From: Helianthus annuus
Lineage: Eukaryota; Streptophyta; Magnoliopsida; Asterales; Asteraceae
Assembly (NCBI RefSeq): GCF_002127325.2
Contig: NC_035433.2
Span: forward strand, 94,008,033 to 94,072,032
Length of the DNA: 64,000 nt
Direction: 5' to 3'
In this document: positions 1 through 12,462 of the stretch, one piece after another
Layout of the letters: every line of letters starts with the position of its first letter
Position numbering within the stretch: position 1 is the first letter of the stretch
Made by a program: the position numbers and the translations under genes
The notes under the pieces: generated by a model
Told to the model about the DNA's origin: nothing
Database searches by the model: none
The model's input: the letters and a program-made list of their open reading frames with translations, nothing else

Positions 1-641
1 CAATTTTTGAATTTTATCATGTTTTTGGCTTTTCAAAATTTCTAATGTTTTTGGATTTTCTGAAATTTCTTACTCCCCCTAAAATTCAAAATCATTAAAA
101 GGAAATTTGACAAACTGTACAAGTAAATTGACAACTGTTGTGAATTGCTTCAATTCACCATTCACTTGGCATAAACAATCAGAACTCCCCCTGACAACAA
201 ACTATTTTCCCATTATGATTTCAAAACACTTAAGTTTGTTTTAATCAAAATGGTTTTTCCGGAAAATTAGTTTTGTTGAAATTCACAAACCACTTGAAGG
301 TTAGGGGTTTCATCACATTGTTTTATCAAAAATACCACTTGTAGGAAAGATAAATCAAGTACAACTTAATGCCCTTGATTAATCCATTTGTAGAATCAAA
401 CCAATAACCACTTGTAGGTTTTTACAAACACACCACTAGTAGGTCGAAATATCACCAACGTGAATTTCTCAAGAAAGATGCCGATTCCTGCTCCACGATT
501 ACCAACTTGGGAGCTCCGGCAAGTCCAGAGTTTTAGTCGTGATAGGTTGTATCCTAGTTACTAATCCGGGATGAACCATCATCATTTGGTTTCCTTGTTT
601 TCTTTTCATAAAATTCCTTAACCCTTTCACCTTTCCATCAA
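1..641 (-). other. Tail and 3' non-coding region of E2
   Basis: This stretch parallels 3350-3970 in E3. The last codons of the gag-like frame, after the TAA at 661-663, run to about 570. Beyond that there is no coding frame. It holds CTCCCC tracts (near 63-80 and 186-192), which are PPT-like on the minus strand. It also holds several copies of a CCACTTGTAGG-like word (about 290, 334, 407, 431) and a block containing GATGCCGATTC and CTCCGGCAAG (478-525) that occurs twice in E3. Confidence 0.6.
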
Positions 642-1324
642 TCATTTTTCCAAAAATATTTTAGACTGTGGGGTTAAAGGCTTTTTCAACATCAAATTCC
701 TTCTTTTCAGTAAAGAATTGATTTGAAATCTCAACTTTTCCAACTTTTTGCTTAAAATTCTCAGCCCGCAATGGTGGAAAATTTGCCTCATCCATTGGTG
801 GTACTGACTTTTCAACTTTTGGTTCAACTTGTGGCTCATCTGACTTTGTGGAATCAGATTCATCGCCAAAACTATCAAATGATTTCTTAACAATCCACCT
901 GTGATTGTCAAGATTAACTTTCCTCTTATAAACTTTTTTTTGAACATTCTCCAACCTCAAATGTTGAGTTTTCAAAAACTTTAAATCTTTTGGTTGGTGG
1001 TTTACTTTTTTCAACAACTTTTTCTTTCAGTTTAAGAGACACTCCCTGTTGAGTATTGGTTGCCTTTGGACAATTTCTAGCAATATGACCAACTTTATGA
1101 CAGTTAAAATAGGTTCTCGTCTCCCTTTTCTTCTGAGCAGCTACATTCTTCATTTCTTCTTGCTTCTTTGCTTGAAACCCTTTGTTTGATTGTTTCCAGA
1201 ATGAGCTCTTTTGTTCCTTCTCAGCACTTGTTCCTGAAACAAATAATGTATTTATTTTAGAAATTTTCTCATTTTTATGATTTTTTGGTGGTACAAACCC
1301 AAGTCCTTTCTTTTTGAAATTACC
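642..1324 (-). pseudogene. C-terminal part of the giant Gag-like protein of E2
   Basis: This is the downstream half of the E2 polyprotein, cut from the rest by E3 at 1325-1330. It is read in two frames. The first (926-1324) carries a second zinc knuckle in which the first Cys is Tyr (YFNCHKVGHIARNC), so metal binding is probably lost. The frame shifts at a run of eight T at 934-941 and continues to an in-frame TAA at 661-663. It aligns with the E3 homologue (3981-4817) through GKVEISNQFF and neighbouring blocks. An open frame extends rightward to 1402, but its first 26 or so codons come from the E3 LTR and are not part of this gene. It is a non-functional remnant. Confidence 0.75.
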
Positions 1325-1329
1325 GTTAT

Positions 1330-1783
1330 TGTAGGATCGTTTTCGGACCCAAACGAGTCGATCAGAAGAGTTTATCTTAGTTTGAACGGCGGAAACAGAC
1401 AATCTAAGCTCAATTCAGCAAGAATATTACTTAAAACTGTCTTTTTGATTGATAGAAAGACTTTTACAGCTTGATGACACTTCGGGTGCACTTCGTTGCA
1501 AACCGGAACAACTTCTACTCTGATTTCGCTCCAACTGAACTATTTATAGGCAATAGGGTTCCACTTGAACATGTCTCAAACAGAATCACCATGACTGTTT
1601 TGAGCGGAATCAGAGCAAACAACTCGAGCGGAATCAACATTATGTGATTTAGCTTGAAACTGACTTGAAGTGATTTCAAGCGGAATCTCTACTATATCCA
1701 CCATCTCGTTTTTCATGCCCTGATCTAACTAGTACAGTACAAGACTCGATACAAGACGAAGACGACAGACGGATGCACCAACA
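1330..1783 (-). repeat. 3' LTR of E3 (454 bp)
   Basis: Pairs with 8290-8743, same length and clearly homologous throughout, with scattered substitutions. The minus-sense start is TGTTGGTGCATCC and the end is CCTACA. It contains a TATA box at 1541-1548 and several AGCGGAATC-type motifs (1563-1690). The left neighbour is TSD GTTAT (1325-1329). Confidence 0.93.
1541..1548 (-). promoter_or_regulatory. TATA box of E3 3' LTR
   Basis: TATAAATA on the minus strand. The same octamer is at the matching place in the other E3 LTR (8501-8508) and in the E2 LTR (12230-12237), which supports a real core promoter. The iterated motif array lies just upstream in the sense direction. Confidence 0.7.
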
Positions 1784-2436
1784 AACTCCCCCTCGGATGT
1801 TGACGGAGTCTTCAGTGTCGAGTCTTCGCATCTTCAGTCTTTATTAGCCTATGGGCTTCTCTTTAAAATATTTGACGCTGTAAGTATCTTCAATATCTAT
1901 CTTCTCTTCTCTTTCATCTTCAACAAACTCCTTCCCTCGGATGTTAACGTCTTCTCTATTCATCAGCACCAACATACACTCCTCCTCGAATGTTGAATCT
2001 TTAAAATCTTGTTAGTAACAACAATCTCTGAATCAGAACCTGGCTCTTTGCCAATCAGACTCCCCCTCTCAATCAGCTGGGATCGCAGTCTGGCTTTCAC
2101 AGGTTCAAGATCGTTGTCTGACTCAAACTTTGCTTAGGATTGAAAAACCTGGCTCTTTTCTATTACAAGCTTCTCTGGATCGATGCCTAGCTCTTCTTCT
2201 AATCTGCACATTCTCTACCACAAACATAAGTTTTATATACTCAGACACCATTTGTAAAATACATTTCAAACTGATCTATCATATAGTATCTGATGAATCA
2301 CTTGCTGGAGTATCATTTTCAAAACTTCTGATGACCACTTGAAAGATAGATTTTAATCTTTTACTCAAACTCTCTTTCACAAAATGTCATCATGTTTGGC
2401 ACTTGGAATTTTGAAAATCAGCATTCTAATACCAGT
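1784..2436 (-). other. E3 non-coding region next to 3' LTR, with repeated PPT-like tracts
   Basis: No convincing coding frame. The PPT is at 1784-1794. The words ACTCCCCCTCGGATGTT (about 1786), ACTCCTTCCCTCGGATGTT (about 1930), ACTCCTCCTCGAATGTT (about 1978) and ACTCCCCCTCTCAATC (about 2060) repeat the PPT and its flank. Multiple PPT-like copies before the 3' LTR are a known Sirevirus trait. A PBS-like sequence sits at 2421-2434. Confidence 0.55.
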
Positions 2437-3329: not shown

Positions 3330-3980
3330 TTTCCCCCTTTTCACAACAACACTCATTTTTCATTTTATCATGTTTTTGGCTTTTTCAAATTTTCTAATGT
3401 TTTTGGATTTTCTGAAATTTTTACTCCCCCTAAAATGCAAACACATTTAACAAAAATTGAAAACAAACTAAGCTCTTGACCCACTTAGTAAAAACAAACT
3501 ATACAAGTAAGTTGACAACTGATATCAAATCGCTTCAATTCGCCATCCACTAGGCATAAACAATCAGAACTTCCCCTATCAACAAGCTATTTTCTCATTC
3601 AGATTTCAAAACACTTAAGTTTGTTTTAATTAAAATGATTTTTTCCGAAAAATAAGTTTAGTTGATTTTACCACTTGTAGAGATACCATTAGTAGGTTCG
3701 GGGATGTGGTTCATCATATTGTCCTTCAACCACTTGTAGGAAAATTCAAGTACAAATTAATGTCCTTGATTTACCGTTTGCAAGTATACACAATCAAATC
3801 TCTTAACCACTTGTATGTAATCTTAATCAAATATAAAGAATGATGCCGATTCATGTTCCACTCTTACCAACCTGGGAACTCCGGCAAATCACACTTAACC
3901 TTTTTCCAAAAACATTTTAAGAAAGATGCCGACTCCTGATCCGCGATTACAAACTTGGGATCTCCGGCAAGTCAGGTTTT
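3330..3980 (-). other. E3 3' non-coding region after the gag-like frame
   Basis: Homologous to 1-641 of E2. It carries CCACTTGTAGG-like words (about 3671, 3687, 3730, 3798), CTCCCCC and CTTCCCC tracts (3422, 3569), and two copies of a block starting GATGCCGA and ending CTCCGGCAA (3842-3890 and 3924-3972). No gene seen. Confidence 0.55.
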
Positions 3981-6116
3981 CTATTCAAAGAAAATATCCA
4001 CCCAAGCCTGACCAGCCTTGGCTGTTACGGAGTCACCAACACTCAGTTTCTTACCTCCCATCTTCTTCTCATAGAACTCTTTAACCCCTTTGACTTTTCG
4101 ATCAACCATTTTACCAAAATTATGTTTTACCTTGGGGTTATAGGCCTTTTCAGCATCAAAAACCTGCTTATCAGAATAAAATTGGTTAGAAATCTCAACT
4201 TTACCAATTTTCTTCTTAAAATTTTCAGCATCAAAAACCTGCTTTTCAGAATAAAATTGGTTAGAAATCTCAACTTTACCAATTTTCTTCTTAAAATTTT
4301 CAGCCCGAAGTGGTGGAAAATTCTCATCATCCACAGTCGGAACTGATTTTTCACCAATTACCTCAACCTGTGGCTCCTCTGATTTTGTGGAATCAGATTC
4401 ATCGTCAGAAGATAGCTCCTCTGATTTTGACCTATCAGAATCATCACTAGAACTCTCAACCGACTTCTTAACAACCCATTTTTGGTTGTCAGATTTAGCT
4501 CTCTTCTTGTAAAACTTGTTTGAACATTCACCAATTTCAAATTTAGAATTTTTGAATAATTTTGTTCTATCAATTGGTGGTTCAAACTCAACCACTTTCT
4601 CTTTTAGTTTAGAAACTCCCTGTTTGGTTTGAATTGCTTGCGAACAGTTTACCGCAAGATGTCCAATTCTACCACATTTGAAACAGGTTCGAGTTTTCTT
4701 TCTCTGATCAGCATTCTTCATCTCTTCTTGCTTCTTTGCAAGGAACTCTCTATTTGATTGCCTCCAAAATTCTTTCTTTTCTTCTTCATCTGCTGACGTT
4801 CCTGAAACAAATGTCATCTTTGATTTAAAATCACGAACATATTTTTCATTTTTTCGTTTTTCTGTTGGAGTAGATCCTAAACCTTTCTATTTGAAATTAC
4901 CGTTATGGTTTGATTTCTTTTGAAAACCAGAACCAGAACTGTAACCTTTTTTCTTGTTTAATCTTTGTTGAACTCTTGAGGTGTATTTTTTAGGTTTATC
5001 ATTAAGATGTAAATCTTTTATTTCACAAATATTAATTTCTGTTAGTTTGAAAACCTTTTTGATCAATTCAGTTTTAACACCTCTTATTGGAAATTCCTCA
5101 TCAGAATATAATTTGTCAGAATCATTTAAAGTGTAAGCAACTTTAAACAGTTCGTCATCCAATTTAGATTTTGATACCAGGAATTCTTTGTCATAAACTC
5201 TTTTTCCCTGTTTTTCATTTTAACCCGGAGTGTTGGACTCAGACTTTGACTCTGAACTAGACTCTGACTTTGACTCCTCTGTTTCATCGTTATCTAACAC
5301 ATGATCCACCACTTTCTTCATCAATTGAGATTGTTGATCAGTGTCAGACGATGTAAAAACAACATCTATGTTTTCTGGCAAAATGACTGACGACTCCGAC
5401 TCCCACTGTAAGTTTGTAGCCTTTTAGACTCTTTCAGAATTTGGATTTCTGGGCAAATATCCGTTTTCCAGTGGGGGTGGACACTTGTTGTAACTGACAC
5501 CATATTTCTTACCAGAATTCTTCTTGTCAGTCTTTTTCTTTGTGTCACTTTTCTTCTCGTTCTTCTTTTCAGGAGTCTTTTCATCATTGGTCTTTCGCTC
5601 TTCAGTTACCTCATCTTCTTCAAATGCCTTCATGCCTTCAATAGTTGGATAAATCCTGTCAATGACATAAGAAGTACATGAGTAACTTTTCAATAAGCAA
5701 TTTACTCTTTCAGTTTCTATCCTTTGTAACTCTAGTTTCTGTTCAAGAGCAGCACACTTCTCGATGTAATTGTTCACCACTTTCTGTTTAATCATGAACG
5801 CTCCCTGAAGTGTCTTCATTGCTGTAGCCTGCTCTTCACTTGTGTCATTGTACATATTCATCGCTTTGTTCAGCACATCATAAGATTCCTTCAATCTGTT
5901 CATATTGTGAATCAAACAACTGTTTTGTTTCTTTACAGCTTCACAATTTTCACAAATCACCGGACTCTTCTTTGCAACAGCTTCTTTCACTTTCCTTCTA
6001 ACTACCGATACTGTTTCATCGTCACTGCTAACCGGTGTCTTTACGTTTTTCTGTTTCTTCTTGGCTTTCTCATCTTCACTATCACTTTCAGCCATCATCT
6101 TCAAGTGTTGTGCCAT
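3981..6116 (-). pseudogene. Giant Gag-like protein of E3, C-terminal half (helical region and second zinc knuckle)
   Basis: One minus-strand frame, closed by stops at 5424-5426 (TAA), near 5220, and at 4887-4889 (TAG), ending at 3981. In order: a Lys/Glu/Gln-rich helical stretch likely to form a coiled coil (about 5950-5640), a conserved block with CPPPLENGY (about 5480), a block with YTLNDSDKLYSDEEFPIRG (about 5110), a zinc knuckle CFKCGRIGHLAVNC (about 4680), acidic Ser/Asp repeats, and a C-terminus with GQAWVDIFFE. The neighbour upstream is the Gag N-terminal half (7762-6356) in another frame; one frameshift lies in 6117-6355. In Sireviruses a Gag extension with coiled coil is known. No pol domain follows. 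Database annotation of such proteins as CCHC regulators would probably be mistaken. Confidence 0.8.
4151..4300 (-). repeat. 75-bp tandem duplication inside the E3 gag-like frame
   Basis: Units 4151-4225 and 4226-4300 are near identical (one difference noticed). Each encodes 25 residues beginning ENFKKKIGKVEIS. The E2 copy (about 680-780) has only one unit, so this is a duplication private to E3 and in frame. Confidence 0.9.
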
Positions 6117-6355
6117 TTGTTGTGCATAATATTCAGCACCATCATCATCACTATCTTCTTCGATTCTGGCAACAAAAGCTGTGTGCGCTGTAGCTTGATC
6201 AGGAATATAATCATCCCAAGTAAAATTCTCCCAGCTAAAACCTTCGGGTAATTTCTCATCATCTTGATCTTTATCAAGGCGTTACCATCAGCTCTCTTTG
6301 AAGAGTCTTGATTAACCACACAAGCTCTCTTTGAAGAATCTTCAATCACATTTCT

Positions 6356-7777
6356 TCAATGTGCAGTTTGTGCTTGATGTTGATGTTGTTGAGGTGATTG
6401 TTGAGCAACTTGATGGTAAATGGCCTTCCGGTAGTAATCATTGTTGTTGTTGAATGGATTTTGAGCTCCACTTGCTTCGCGATTGGTGCACTCCCTCTTG
6501 AAGTGTCCTTTCTCCCTGCAACGAAAACAAGTGACTTTAGCTTTATCAAAACCTAAAGTAGAAATGTTAGCTTCACGTATATCATTTCTTCCTGTAATCT
6601 GCGTAAATTTCTCAGCTCTCCTCAACACACTAGCCAAACACCATTTTATATCCATTAATTCCATCTCTTCAGCATCTATTTGATCGTAATCCTCTTTTGT
6701 AAGCATTGGATTCCCGATCTTTCCTACAACGAAACTACTATAAGATTCCAACACCATTCCTAACAAAGATATGTGATTTTTAGCAACTTCCTCTGAATAA
6801 TCTTGATCATTTTCAAGATTTAATACAATATTGCACTGAAGTTTTCTCCCATTCTTTGTTGCTGAAATGTTCGGATCAAATGAAGGAAATGACGAGAAAC
6901 TTGTCTTGCTACTTGATCCTGTTGATGAACTTCCTGATGAACCTTTAGCATTGAATGCAGTTTCCACTTTTGGAGAAAAATTTGTGGTTTTCTCATTCAA
7001 CCTTGTTTTGTAATACAACCCAATATCCTGTTCACCATCGAAATCTTTCATTCGAACAATCTTTCGTTGCTCCGTCTCTTGAGCTTCCAATTTCTCAATG
7101 AATTTACTCAAAGTGAGCGTGTTAAATCCTTTCTTGTTTCTGAGCATCATCAGATATGTACCCCAAGTTTCGTGTGGTAAAGCGTCAGCCAGTTTTTCAA
7201 TTAACTCCTCATTGTCTTTGTTGATGCTTACCCTTCTCATATTAACCAACAAATTGCAATATATTTCTATAATCTGCTTTGTGCTCTCATTCTTCAATCA
7301 ACGAAACAAATCAAATTCTTTCTTCAAGAGTGATTTCTTGTTCCTGATCATTTCCTGACTACCAACAAACTTTGATCTTAAAGCTTTCCAAATCGAATAA
7401 GAACTTCCATTATGTTGCAATAAGACCATGATGTCTTCTTTCACAGCTTGTTGTAGCAGACTCAACATCATTTTCTCATTTTTGTATTTCCTTTTATCTT
7501 CAGCACTCATATCCTTAATAGCAATCACCTCTTCGTCGTCATTTGTCGGTCTCACATACTTCGTCTCAACACATTCCCAAGCATCTAGATAATTTGCTTG
7601 TACCCAGTTCTCGAAACGACCTTCCCAACCCTTATACTCTTCGATGTTCATAAGCTTGGGCGGTTTTTGCATAGTTCCTGTTTTGTTTTTCAACATTGTG
7701 TTCTGTGCGAGACTGATCGGGGTAACCGGAGTAGCGAATGCGTTGTAAAATTCTTCGTCCATTTTTCGGATTATCAA
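6356..7777 (-). pseudogene. gag: Gag, N-terminal half, E3 (copia Gag with zinc knuckle)
   Basis: Copia-type capsid/nucleocapsid protein that would package element RNA in cytoplasmic particles. The best start is the ATG at 7760-7762 (MDEEFYNAFA), matched by the start of E2 at 11547; the open frame upstream of it is leader. The UBN2-like capsid region covers about 7700-6900, with hallmark blocks KPPKLMNIEEY and DKLADALPHETWG-like text. The zinc knuckle CFRCREKGHFKREC (C-x2-C-x4-H-x4-C) is at about 6520. One TGA at 7298-7300 breaks the frame and a stop at 6356 ends it; a frameshift within 6117-6355 separates it from the C-terminal half. E2 carries a homologue with different lesions. Confidence 0.85.
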
Positions 7778-8289
7778 AAATCACCAAATTGACTGTTCAA
7801 GCGAAATAACCAACTTTAAAAAAAACACCTCTCAAGCAAAATCACTGAATTAATCTAGAAGCACTGATTCAAGCGGAATCAGTCAATCAAAGTTCAAGCG
7901 AGATACCAAGTTCGAGCAGAATCAAACTCAGTTCTTTTTCAAGCGGAATACATTTTTTGGAGCGGAATACCACGCTTTGAGCGAAATCACATAAATTTTT
8001 CAAGCGGAATATCAATCTTAAGCGGAAACAATGTACAATCTCAAGCGGAATCACGCTGATGTCATAATTCCATCGAGCAAATTCAAGCGAAATAGCTAAA
8101 AATGTCAGTTTTTGATCGAATTATGGCCTGAAACTTTCAAGGCTTTGTTAAACCATGTTTGCGCATATACTGTGAAAATTTGACCCAATTTTAACCGTGA
8201 AATGATGTTTAATTTGAAAAAGAAGGTGTAGAAGTCAGAATTAGCAGCTGAATTGGCAAGAACTCTTCCTCTTGAGCTCTAATACCACT
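7763..8289 (-). promoter_or_regulatory. E3 leader with an array of about 12 iterated motifs
   Basis: Untranslated leader between PBS and gag ATG. Between 7794 and 8092 there are about twelve copies of TCAAGCGGAAT or close variants (TCAAGCGAAAT, TCGAGCAGAATC, GGAGCGGAATA), spaced roughly 15-35 bp. The same word recurs in the E3 LTR upstream of its TATA box. Repeated motifs in LTR and leader are known in Sireviruses; the function is not settled. Confidence 0.75.
8276..8287 (-). other. Primer-binding site of E3 (tRNA-iMet)
   Basis: Minus-strand TGGTATTAGAGC, two bases after the 5' LTR end; one mismatch to the usual TGGTATCAGAGC complementary to initiator tRNA-Met. Confidence 0.9.
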
Positions 8290-8743
8290 TGTAGGATCGT
8301 TTTCAGACCCAAACGAGTCGATCAGAAGAGTTTATCTTAGTTTGAACGGTGAAAACAGACAAACTAAGCTCAATTCAGCAAGAATATTACTTAAAACTGT
8401 CTTTTTGACTGATAGAATGACTTTTACATCTTGATGACACTTCGGCAGCACTTCGTTGCAAACCAGAACAACTTCTACTCTGATTTCGCTCCAATTGAAC
8501 TATTTATAGGCAATGGGGTTCCGCTTGAACGTGTCTCAAGCGGAATCACCATGACTGTTTCGAGCGGAATCAGAACAAACAACTCGAGCGGAATCAACAT
8601 TATGTGATTTCGCTTGAAACTGACTTGAAGTCATTTCAAGCGGAATCTCTACTATATCCACCATCTCGTTTTTCGTGCCCTGATCTAACTAGTACCGTAC
8701 AAGACTCGATACAAGACGAAGACGACAGACGGATGCACCAACA
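8290..8743 (-). repeat. 5' LTR of E3 (454 bp)
   Basis: Partner of 1330-1783. It is flanked on the right by TSD GTTAT (8744-8748), where E2 sequence resumes. It carries TATA box 8501-8508, and upstream of that in the sense direction (8520-8650) about six AGCGGAATC or GATTTCGCT motifs in both orientations. Confidence 0.93.
8501..8508 (-). promoter_or_regulatory. TATA box of E3 5' LTR
   Basis: Minus-strand TATAAATA. Transcription would start some 25-35 bp further left and run through PBS and gag. The motif array at 8520-8650 is in the promoter-proximal position. Confidence 0.72.
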
Positions 8744-8748
8744 GTTAT

Positions 8749-11547
8749 GTTTGATTTCTTTTGATAACCTGAACCAGAACTGTAACCTTTTTTCTTGTTT
8801 AATCTTTGTTGAACTCTTGAGGTGTAAGGTTAAGGTTTATCAGTAAGATTTACATCTTTTATTTCAGAAATATTAATGTCTGTTAATTTGAAAACCTTTT
8901 TGATCATTTCACTTTTAACACCTCTTATTGGAAATTCTTTATCAGAATATAATTTGTCAGAATCAATCAAAGTATATGCTATTTTGATCGGTTCGTCATT
9001 CGAATTAGATTTTGATAACAGAAATTCTTTATTGTAAACTTGTTTGCCCTGTTTGACTTTTGGACTTGAAGTGTCAGACTTTGACTTCATCTGACTTCGA
9101 CTCCAACTTTGACTCCTCGGTTTCATCTTTATCCAACACCTGATCGACTACTTTCTTTATTAACTCGGACTCATGATCAGTGTCAGGCGATGTGAAAGTG
9201 ACATCGATACTTTCTGGCAAATTATCTGAAGTCTCAGATTCCCACTGTAAGTTGGTTGCCTTTTTGACTCTTTTTGAATTTGGATTTCTTAGAGAATATC
9301 CATTTTCAAGCGGGGGTGGACACTTGTTGTAACTAACACTTTGTTTCTTACCAGAATTCTTCACTTCGGTTTCCTCTTTTGTTTCAGACTTCTTCTTTGC
9401 AGATGTTTCTTCTGACTTCTTTTCTTCAGATATCTTTTCTTGAAATGTCTTCATGCTTTCAGCTATAGGGTAAATCCTGTCAATCACATAAGAAGAACAT
9501 GACTAACTTTTCAATAATTTGTTTACTCTCTCAGTTTCAATTATCTGAGTTTCCAATTTCTGTTCAAGCTCAGCATTCAAACCAATGTAATAATTGATCA
9601 TATCTTGCTTAATCATGTATGCTCCATTGAGTGTCTTCATGGCTGTAGCTTGTTCACTGCTTGACTCATTGTATTGATTCATTGCTTTGTTTAAGACATC
9701 ATATGATTCTTTCAACCTGTTCATGTTGTGGATCAACTCACTGTTTTGCTTCTTCATATTCTCATAGTTTTCACAATTCTCAGACACTTTCTCTGCAACA
9801 ATTTCCTTTTTAACCTCAAACACTGGAATTTCTTTGTCCTGCTTTTTTATCACACGAACTTCTTCTTCAACATTCTCATCTTTCTTGGCTAAATACTTTT
9901 TTATTTTCTCTGTCTAATAATCATCAGTAGTATAGTTTTCACCATTATCTTTAACAATTTGAGCAACAAAAGCTTTATGATCTGAAGTTCTGTTTGGATC
10001 ATAGTCATCCCAACTAAAATCTTTCCAACTGAAACCCTCTGGAAGCCTTTCATCATCTTGATCTATCAGACATGCTTTACTATCAGCCGAAATATATTTA
10101 TCCCAACTGAATTCTTTTGATGTACTTCCATCATCTTGATTAACATCTTCGATCACCTTCCTAGCATGTGTAGTTTGTTGTTGTTCTTGTTGATACGGCT
10201 GTTGAGCAACTTGATGATAAATTGCTTTTCGATAATAATCATTGTTTCCAAAAGGATTTTGAGCTCCACTTGATTCGCGGTTTGTGCACTCTCGCTTAAA
10301 ATGCCCTTTTTCCCTGCAACGAAAACAAGTAACTTTAGATTTATCAAATCCTAAAGTAGAAACATTTGCATCACGGAAATCATCTCTTCCTGTAATTTGT
10401 TTAAACTTTTCAGCTCTTCTCAACATGCTTGCGAAACACCACTTTATATCCATCAACTCCATCTCCTCAGCATCAACCTGATCGTAATCCTCTTTTGTCA
10501 ACATCGGATTTCCGATCCTTCCTGCAACCAAACTACCATATGACTCTAACACAGTCACCAACAACGACATATGACTTTTTGCAACTTCTTCCGAGTAGTT
10601 TTGATCATTCTCAAGATTTAAAGCAATGTTGCATTGAAGAACTTTGCCATTTTTTGTTGCAGAAAAATGTGGATCAAATGATGGATATGAAGAAAATCCC
10701 ATTTTGCTACTTGATCCTTGAGATGAATTTTCAGAAGAACTTTTAGCATTGAAAGCAGTTTTGATCTTTGGAGCAATGTTGGTTTTATCACTGACACCAA
10801 CTTTGTAATACAAACCAATGTCTTGTTCTCCATCATAATTCTTCATTCTTGCTATCTTTCGTTGTTCCATCTCTTGAGCTTCAAGTTATTTAATAAACTC
10901 ACTCAGTGTTATCTTGTCAAAATCCGGTTTATTTTTCAACATCATAAGGTACGTGCCCCAAACATCATGTGGCAATGCATCAGCCAACTTATCAGTCAAT
11001 TCATCTTTGTCTTTATTGATGTTCAATCTGTTCATATTCTTCACCAAATTGCAATATCTTTCAATAATCTGTTTGGTGTTTTCAGTTCTCAATCCACGAA
11101 ATAGATCAAATTCTTTCTTTAAAAGTGACCTTTTATTCTTGATCATCTCGTGACTACCAAGAAACTTTGATTCTAACTCTTTCCATATTGAATGTGCACT
11201 TCCGTTGTGTTGAAGTAAAATCAAGATGTCTTCTTTAATGGCTTGCTGCAAAAGACTAACCATCATTTTTTCATCTTTGTATTTCTTTTCCTCTTCAACA
11301 CCTAGATTTCTTATTTCAATTTTCACTCCATCGTCCTTGACTAGTCTTCTATATTGAAATTCTGTATGTCCCAAGCATCTAAATGATATGCTTGAACCCA
11401 GTTCTCAAAACGTTCAGACCATCCACTGTATTCCTCGATACTCATGAGCTTAGGCGGCTTTTGCGTTGTCCCTATTTCATTTTCTAGCATCATACTCTGA
11501 GTAATAGTCATCGGACTAGCAAAGGCATTATAGAACTCGTTTTCCAT
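8749..11547 (-). pseudogene. gag: Gag and helical region of the giant Gag-like protein of E2
   Basis: The E2 homologue of the E3 gag. It starts at ATG 11545-11547 (MENEFYNAFA). The frame shifts near 11345-11374, then one frame runs to about 9074, broken by TAA at 10886, TAG at 9914, and stops near 9503 and 9488. A further shift near 9074-9126 leads to 8830 and on toward the E3 insertion point. Features: capsid region (11480-10500), zinc knuckle CFRCREKGHFKREC (about 10310), Gln-rich stretch, helical region 9850-9500, CPPPLENGY (about 9320). Gag and helical half share one frame here across about 2.3 kb, which shows that the ancestor coded one long protein. It continues at 642-1324 across E3. 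Confidence 0.82.
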
Positions 11548-12017
11548 GATTCGGTTTTCAAAGTTTCATTAATTTGATCTTTCAAACGAAATGAACTTTC
11601 ATGCGGAATGACCCTCTTCAAACGAAAACAACCTTCGTGCGAAATGAAATGTTGATTTCGTACGAAACAAAAAGTGATTTCGTACGAAATGGAATCTGAT
11701 CTCGTGTGAAATGAAGACCTAATTTCATGCGAAATGAAGCTCTGATTCCGTGCGAAATACAGCAAAGTTCAAATGAAATGATATCAATTTCGTGCGAAAT
11801 GAAACTTTCGGACAGTTTTTGCAAAAATTGATCAAGTTTTACTTTGAATTAGAATCTGATTCTTTCTAGGGTTTGTTAAAACACTGTTTCACACAATATA
11901 TTTGAAAATCAAGCCATTTTAACCATGAAATTTTGTTTAATTTTGAAAAGAAGGTGTAGAAAACAGAATTTGCAGCTGAAATGGTAAGAACTCTTCCTCC
12001 TGAGCTCTGATACCACT
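11548..12017 (-). promoter_or_regulatory. E2 leader with an array of about 11 iterated motifs
   Basis: Between 11580 and 11812 there are about eleven copies of TTTCGTGCGAAATG or variants (TTCATGCGGAATG, TTTCGTACGAAAC, TTCAAACGAAATG). The core ATTTCGTGCGAAAT is close to palindromic. The position corresponds to the E3 leader array, but the word is different. The PBS is at 12004-12015. Confidence 0.75.
12004..12015 (-). other. Primer-binding site of E2 (tRNA-iMet)
   Basis: Minus-strand TGGTATCAGAGC, an exact match to the standard initiator tRNA-Met PBS, two bases from the LTR end at 12018. Confidence 0.93.
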
Positions 12018-12462
12018 TGTAGGATCGTTTTCAGACCCAAACGAGTCGATCAGAAGAGATCTCGTCCAATACGAAAGGCAGAAACAGACGTATCGGAGTT
12101 ATTTCAGCTGGATTGCACAAGAAATCACTTTAAACTGTCTTTGTATCAGATCGTATTACAATGCTGGAGACACTTCGGCAGAGCTTCGCTACCGGAATTG
12201 AAACATTACAAATGAAATGTCAAGGTAGGTATTTATAGGCTCAGCTATTTCGCACGAAACAATTCATGTGAAATCAGCTTCACACGAAATGACTATTTCA
12301 CACGAAATGACTAGCTCATTTCATGCGAAATGCCAGTTTCTCATTTCGTGCGAAATGCCTCTAACATATACATTTCTCATTTTCTCGTACAATGTGCCCT
12401 GGTCTTTCTAATCAACGACAAGACTCGATACAAGACGAAGTCGACAGACATATGCACCAACA
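12018..12462 (-). repeat. 5' LTR of E2 (445 bp)
   Basis: Homologous to the E3 LTRs at both ends (GTAGGATCGTTTTC... and ...GCACCAACA) but diverged in the middle. TATA box at 12230-12237; about six TTTCGCACGAAAT-type motifs at 12244-12355 lie upstream of it in the sense direction. The right border with E1 pol is at 12462/12463. Confidence 0.9.
12230..12237 (-). promoter_or_regulatory. TATA box of E2 5' LTR
   Basis: Minus-strand TATAAATA at the position matching the E3 LTRs. Confidence 0.68.

Follow-up and report, generated by a model that had tools for sequence, protein, structure and literature searches.

Two arrays of one CpG-holding word, upstream of TATA and upstream of gag, in nested Sirevirus-like retrotransposons of sunflower

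Two nested LTR retrotransposons, E2 and E3, lie on the minus strand of a 64,000-nucleotide stretch of Helianthus annuus DNA (the window), and each of them carries two arrays of one dyad-like, CpG-holding word, TTYCGNNYGAA, the first upstream of the TATA box and the second upstream of gag. Within each element the two arrays agree with one another, and the difference between the elements is best read as the drift of one word, jointly in both arrays, through versions that intergrade. On balance we lean towards the view that E3, and probably E2, are Gag-only derivatives of a Sirevirus-like Ty1/copia branch whose paired arrays serve a single host factor.

Layout and kinship of the two elements

E2 starts at 12462 and its 3' LTR and 3' end lie beyond the window, so that its LTR array is seen only once (Table 1). 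E3 runs from 8743 to 1330 on the minus strand and is placed inside the E2 gag because E2-related gag sequence continues on both of its sides; ATAAC stands on both flanks as a flanking duplication. An earlier reading made from the sequence alone (hereafter the sequence-only reading) had taken the LTR ends, PBS, TATA and Gag of the two elements to be homologous, and the comparison bears this out. The LTRs are 86% identical over their first 69 nt and 100% identical over their last 41 nt, the first 183 nt of the leaders are 80% identical, the junctions are homologous and both gags start M(E/D)(N/E)EFYNAFA. As separate observations on these parts, the 5' half of the E2 leader holds no CpG in 203 bp and adjoins an array with an observed/expected CpG ratio of 1.96, and the LTR/PBS junction sequence TACAAGTGG recurs after gag, three times in E3 and twice on the E2 side.

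Table 1. Features of E2 and E3 by position in the window.
Feature	Position	Strand	Details
E2 5' LTR	12018..12462	-	445 bp; ends TGTTGG...CCTACA homologous to E3 LTRs
E2 LTR (U3) array	12247..12356	-	6 copies, ATTTCG(CA/TG)YGAAAT-type words
E2 TATAAATA box	12230..12237	-	9 nt past last U3 word
E2 LTR/PBS junction	12004..12021	-	TACA AGTGG TATCAGAGC
E2 leader, 5' half	11815-12017		203 bp
E2 leader array	11579..11800	-	11 copies, steps 17-23 nt
E2 gag ATG	11545-11547		31 nt after last leader word
E2 gag, N-terminal part	9914..11547	-	separate ORF pieces; gag_2 domain PF14223 and CCHC knuckle 1 PF00098
E3 5' LTR	8290..8743	-	454 bp
E3 U3 array	8518-8646	-	6 copies
E3 TATA	8501-8508	-	
E3 leader array	7794..8093	-	12 copies, ATTYCGCTYGAA-type words
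E3 gag region	3981..7762	-	separate ORF pieces; gag_2 match and two CCHC knuckles
TACAAGTGG recurrences	335-343, 408-416, 3671-3679, 3730-3738, 3807-3815	-	
Further E3 AGGGGGAG octamers	2060-2067 and 3424-3431		
E3 terminal polypurine tract AGGGGGAG	1786..1793	-	starts 10 bp ahead of 3' LTR
E3 3' LTR	1330..1783	-	95.2% identity to 5' LTR (432/454)
E3 inverted repeat, polypurine tract/3' LTR junction	1741-1752 and 1815-1826		12-nt arms, 92% complementary; left arm not bordering the tract
E2 Gag knuckle 2	1070-1111	-	Y for a C zinc ligand that E3 keeps
E2-side AGGGGGAG copies	185-192 and 73-80		

The gag_2 match of E2 is above the curated cut-off, whereas that of E3 scores 25.8 bits, short of the cut-off of 27. 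Seven ORF pieces, those of E2 and E3 taken together, showed no pol family, and neither did the ten ORFs tested of the 29 in the E3 3' region, where the sole match was to DUF1265 and sub-threshold (E 0.086). Two LTRs around gag, with no pol detected in the ORFs tested, is the arrangement of TR-GAG elements, and as far as these ORFs go E3 looks Gag-only and TR-GAG-like; E2 is probably Gag-only too. Non-autonomous TR-GAGs of this arrangement have been reported for sunflower, although no motif arrays are described in the excerpts of those reports, and the likely TR-GAGs of the second are Galadriel elements (PMC9784723, PMC11728184).

A protein search with Gag, which gave no DNA context, returned 398 matches, and among the 120 listed 117 were named Helianthus and three Salmonella. 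These three close relatives (P0024, P0063 and P0066) sit on contigs 1.0-1.4 kb long that are assigned to Salmonella enterica and probably represent plant contamination of bacterial assemblies. Scans for Gag gave two pattern matches in viral contigs and 18 in prokaryote contigs, none of which was confirmed, and a scan of the viral contigs for the junction pattern gave none. E2 and E3 have the same Gag knuckle 1, in the form shown by 59 of the 88 knuckle motifs found by pattern in the 120 listed homologues (of 398); knuckle 2 differs between the elements, and the change in E2 looks like decay. The covariation of zinc-knuckle residues with the word, which the sequence-only reading had put forward as a check, is accordingly absent at knuckle 1, and at knuckle 2 what is seen resembles decay.

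Several hallmarks connect the elements with Sireviruses. The published 5' junction, CA/A(T or G)TGG/TATCAGAGC, whose definition includes the G variant (PMC2829016), is found exactly, in that variant, in E2 and with TATTAGAGC in E3, and E3 has the AGGGGGAG polypurine tract 10 bp before its 3' LTR together with copies in the linker. The attachment site after the terminal tract of E3 is TT/TG and not the AT/TG of Sireviruses, in which AT was present in 20 of 21 (PMC2829016). Towards their 3' ends the LTRs lack the C-rich integrase signal seen in 17 of 21 Sireviruses (PMC2829016), the longest run of C in the last 50 nt being 2 in each of the three. In Sireviruses an inverted repeat surrounds the junction of polypurine tract and 3' LTR, its left arm bordering the tract; the repeat at this junction in E3 is imperfect, with 12-nt arms that are 92% complementary and a left arm that does not adjoin the tract. 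The LTRs themselves measure 445-454 bp, against a Sirevirus average of 1.28 kb (PMC2829016). Because of the differing attachment site and the absent C-rich signal, E2 and E3 are best classed as Sirevirus-like and not as members.

The arrays and their words

The profile ATTYCGNNYGAAAT, applied to the sense (minus) strand with three mismatches or fewer, gave six LTR and 11 leader copies of the word in E2 and six and 12 in E3; matches lying beyond the arrays were set aside (three of nine for the E2 LTR and two of 13 for its leader, two of eight for the E3 5' LTR and one of 13 for its leader), and the E3 3' LTR, with eight matches, was left out as a near-duplicate of the 5' LTR. The approximately eleven leader and six LTR copies previously noticed in E2 are thereby recovered, at numbers far above those in shuffled DNA. 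When the fixed word TTTCGTGCGAAA is used instead, with up to two or three mismatches, 5 or 6 sites are found in the LTR array of E2 (shuffle means 0.04 or 0.28) and 9 or 10 in its leader array (0.10 or 0.71), and no shuffle of either array gave more than three. The E3 leader array has 8 or 11 sites of the E3 word at two or three mismatches, compared with 0.09 or 0.53 in shuffles. Shuffled DNA overall holds on average 0.01-0.71 sites per array (two to three mismatches, either word), which rules out chance or low complexity as the origin of the arrays.

The arrays of E2 occupy the positions of those of E3, as had been proposed: the last LTR word stands 9 nt from TATAAATA and the last leader word 31 nt from the gag ATG in both elements. 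The first eight copies of the E2 leader array are spaced 21-23 nt apart. The words of the E3 leader face one way (11 of 12 by profile and 11 of 11 at three mismatches on the sense strand, the twelfth copy, at 7974-7987, having been assigned the sense orientation by eye), and those of the E3 LTR occur in both orientations.

Read on the same strand, the majority words are ATTTCGCAYGAAAT in E2 and ATTCCGCTTGAAAT in E3. When E3 copies are tallied in word orientation and E2 copies in sense orientation (18 and 17 copies), the majority in both has TT at positions 2-3, CG at 5-6 and GAA at 10-12, a common frame of TT-CG---GAA. The words are clearly apart at two positions: C at position 4 is found in 1 of 17 E2 copies and 12 of 18 E3 copies (p 0.0003) and T at position 8 in 3 of 17 and 18 of 18 (p 3e-7), p values that are too favourable, given how the copies were oriented and that they are not independent. 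At two more positions there is a shift in frequency, with C at position 7 in 9 of 17 and 18 of 18 copies and C at position 9 in 8 of 17 and 5 of 18, the other nine E2 copies having T at the latter. Moreover, copies 2, 9, 10 and 11 of the 11 in the E2 leader (ATTTCATTTGAACT, TTTTCGTTTGAAGA, ATTCCGCATGAAAG and ATTTCGTTTGAAAG) are intergrades, three of the four lying at the gag-proximal edge. The near-palindromic character ascribed to the E2 word is borne out, as its copies match on average at 4.06 of 5 dyad pairs, compared with 2.56 of 5 in E3. The description of that word as a different one holds at two positions but otherwise gives way to the common frame and the intergrades; it came largely from comparing opposite strands, and a wholly new word in E2 is ruled out once both words are read on one strand.

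The LTR and leader arrays of each element resemble one another more than they resemble those of the other element. Per 14-mer, LTR and leader words differ on average by 2.88 mismatches in E2 and by 3.38 in E3, values that fall in the range found inside single arrays (2.47-3.88); between elements the mean is 4.36-4.68, in a comparison of two elements of which one is nested in the other. All 12 LTR copies are closer to their own leader, and 10 of 11 leader copies in E2 and 9 of 12 in E3 (with two ties and one reverse) are closer to their own LTR. Only one of the 924 possible divisions of the 12 LTR copies, the true one, reaches the observed value, although this probability is too favourable because copies within an array share descent. 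The proposal of the sequence-only reading that the word had been replaced in both arrays in parallel is thus upheld in that the arrays moved together, and fails as regards replacement by another word, given the common frame and the intergrades, which that reading had itself said would count against it. Nor is a changed host factor needed to explain the change, since joint drift within a fixed frame suffices.

What might hold the two arrays together

From the arrays, their geometry, their agreement within each element, the intergrades and the words kept amid near-random spacers, all of which are observed directly, we infer a putative protein, its dimeric binding, an effect on transcription and a direction of change. 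According to this model, a single DNA-binding protein of the host, probably dimeric, would bind the words, and clusters flanking the transcription start would raise element transcription or keep it open. With a single factor reading both arrays, selection would hold both to the same preferred version of the word, and as the family diverged both arrays would shift together, from T to C or the reverse at position 4 and between A or G and T at position 8, with changes in frequency at positions 7 and 9.

The equal distances to TATA and to the gag ATG, found although the array DNA itself aligns poorly, favour one factor, as does the agreement of LTR and leader words within each element. The occurrence of E3 LTR words in both orientations is compatible with sites in DNA. 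CpG content argues in the same direction as the one-factor model, the observed/expected ratio being 1.24-1.96 in the four arrays, 0-0.53 in the 5' halves of the leaders and 0.53-0.62 in gag. This argument is weakened because the array-free R-U5 is also not CpG-poor (1.19 in E2, 0.95 in E3) and the enrichment is therefore not confined to the arrays. The weak dyad symmetry of the E3 word likewise tells against the model, and the single direction of the E3 leader words is not something that a reader of DNA palindromes would require.

Rather unlikely, yet the strongest of the alternatives, is a mechanical homogenisation in which template switching during reverse transcription, slippage or conversion copies words between LTR and leader, so that the word drifts neutrally in both arrays and no binding factor need change or even exist. 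Direct copying is hinted at by a 53-nt stretch, two words and a spacer, over which E2 LTR 107-159 and E2 leader 260-310 are 79% alike, and this weakens the case for selection. The gag-proximal position of three of the four E3-like or intermediate words in the E2 leader is also as expected for copying, the edge of a tandem array being where older variants should persist. Against it stand the spacers. Word cores are 0.78-0.87 identical within arrays, 0.80 (E2) and 0.84 (E3) between LTR and leader and 0.70 between elements, values that are inflated relative to the flanks because the copies were gathered by a shared-frame profile, whereas flank identity is 0.29-0.38 overall against 0.26-0.31 expected from composition. 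Exchanged tracts would carry their flanks with them, but between LTR and leader flank identity is near random, at 0.29 in E2 (0.26 expected) and 0.34 in E3 (0.30 expected); kept words among near-random spacers favour selection on the word. E2 and E3 copies that hold the same place in their series are scarcely closer to each other than other pairs are (4.50 against 4.36 in the LTR, 4.45 against 4.68 in the leader). Simple recent tandem duplication is similarly disfavoured by the near-random flanks, of which the E2 leader (0.38 against 0.28) and the E3 LTR (0.38 against 0.30) show a slight excess that fits some copying.

It is also conceivable, if improbable, that the arrays act in RNA, as sites bound by Gag or a host protein for packaging or through pairing of the leader with the 3' copy of U3. 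Packaging signals classically lie in the leader between PBS and gag, and the uniform orientation of the E3 leader words would suit such a role. The leader-U3 duplex is more stable than in dinucleotide shuffles within each element (z -8.45 in E2, -2.70 in E3) and more weakly so across elements (z -1.57 and -1.72), and the E2 leader alone folds below its shuffles (z -2.70). However, these scores arise partly from repeated self-complementary words, and the E3 leader has a z of 0.17 against dinucleotide shuffles. Under word-preserving controls (200 each) leader structure is not supported: 98% of spacer shuffles are more stable than the E2 leader, and the E3 leader has no significant advantage over its own spacer shuffles, 14.5% of which reach its stability, and is less stable than all 200 versions with flipped words. 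Random flipping of words would, in other words, make the E3 leader far more structured (200 of 200). The identity of Gag knuckle 1 in E2 and E3 despite the differing word is a further point against this alternative.

Least likely of all is that the arrays are hairpins shaping small-RNA silencing, as proposed for the LTR palindromes of maize Sireviruses, which are small-RNA hotspots (PMC5311732): the U3 arrays do fold well against dinucleotide shuffles (z -8.20 in E2, -4.69 in E3), but silencing would be a host response and not what maintains the words. In controls that preserve the words, folding is exceptional only for the E2 U3 array, whose value is reached by 3.0% of spacer-shuffled, 1.5% of flipped-word and 7.5% of permuted versions, whereas the E3 U3 array lies within its controls (15%, 69% and 13% reach it).

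Known repeat arrays and the meaning of paired stations

The arrays have parallels among known retrotransposons. In tobacco Tnt1 and Tto1, tandem U3 boxes are repeated host-factor sites; they have fewer copies and other words than the arrays of E2 and E3, and we know of no leader array in these elements. To our knowledge, neither the heat-shock element nor the brassinosteroid-response CGTGCG seems to fit both words.

In Drosophila copia and gypsy, arrays of sites in the 5' UTR act as enhancers or insulators (PMC7168160), a parallel that favours a role in transcription for the E2 and E3 arrays. In gypsy, 12 degenerate su(Hw) sites form an insulator in the 5' UTR before gag, and repeated sites are likewise present in the leaders of E2 and E3; the excerpt of that source, however, mentions no matching LTR array in copia or gypsy, whose hosts and sequences are unrelated to those studied here (PMC7168160).

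Sireviruses offer a likeness in the LTR. Their repeated motifs (RM boxes; Bousios et al., 2010) are palindromes particular to each element; one cluster precedes TATA in the LTR, another lies in the linker ahead of an envelope gene, and the 2010 paper left their role open (PMC2829016). Like RM boxes, the words of E2 and E3 are many, short, CpG-holding and element-specific, with a palindromic character that is weak in E3, and are clustered upstream of the LTR TATA, and one consensus word per element serves the LTR and a second site. The main difference is that in E2 and E3 this second array stands in the leader before gag and not in the linker. RM boxes are recognised as at least eight palindromic copies clustered in the LTR before TATA, and E2 has 17 copies, six of them in the LTR; the E3 word is only weakly palindromic; and the CGG-CCG core, present in 12 of 13 published RM motifs and lacking in that of Tnd-1 (PMC2829016), is absent from the majority words ATTTCGCAYGAAAT and ATTCCGCTTGAAAT. 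Among the titles and abstract openings of open-licence papers we found no report of leader arrays in Sireviruses.

A bolder extension of the one-factor model, which we regard as quite unlikely, is that the word is a family-specific address, read by one putative factor at two stations, the promoter and the leader; changes in it would then be fixed in step in both arrays, so that diverging families would partition host factors or helper elements between them. If that were true, a station in the leader ahead of gag would represent a new architecture for motifs of the Sirevirus type. Paired arrays that co-evolve offer a natural test of whether a bound factor or copying between arrays lies behind the turnover of promoter motifs in retrotransposons, and a family present in many copies within a single genome would supply the sample size needed to decide between factor and copying.
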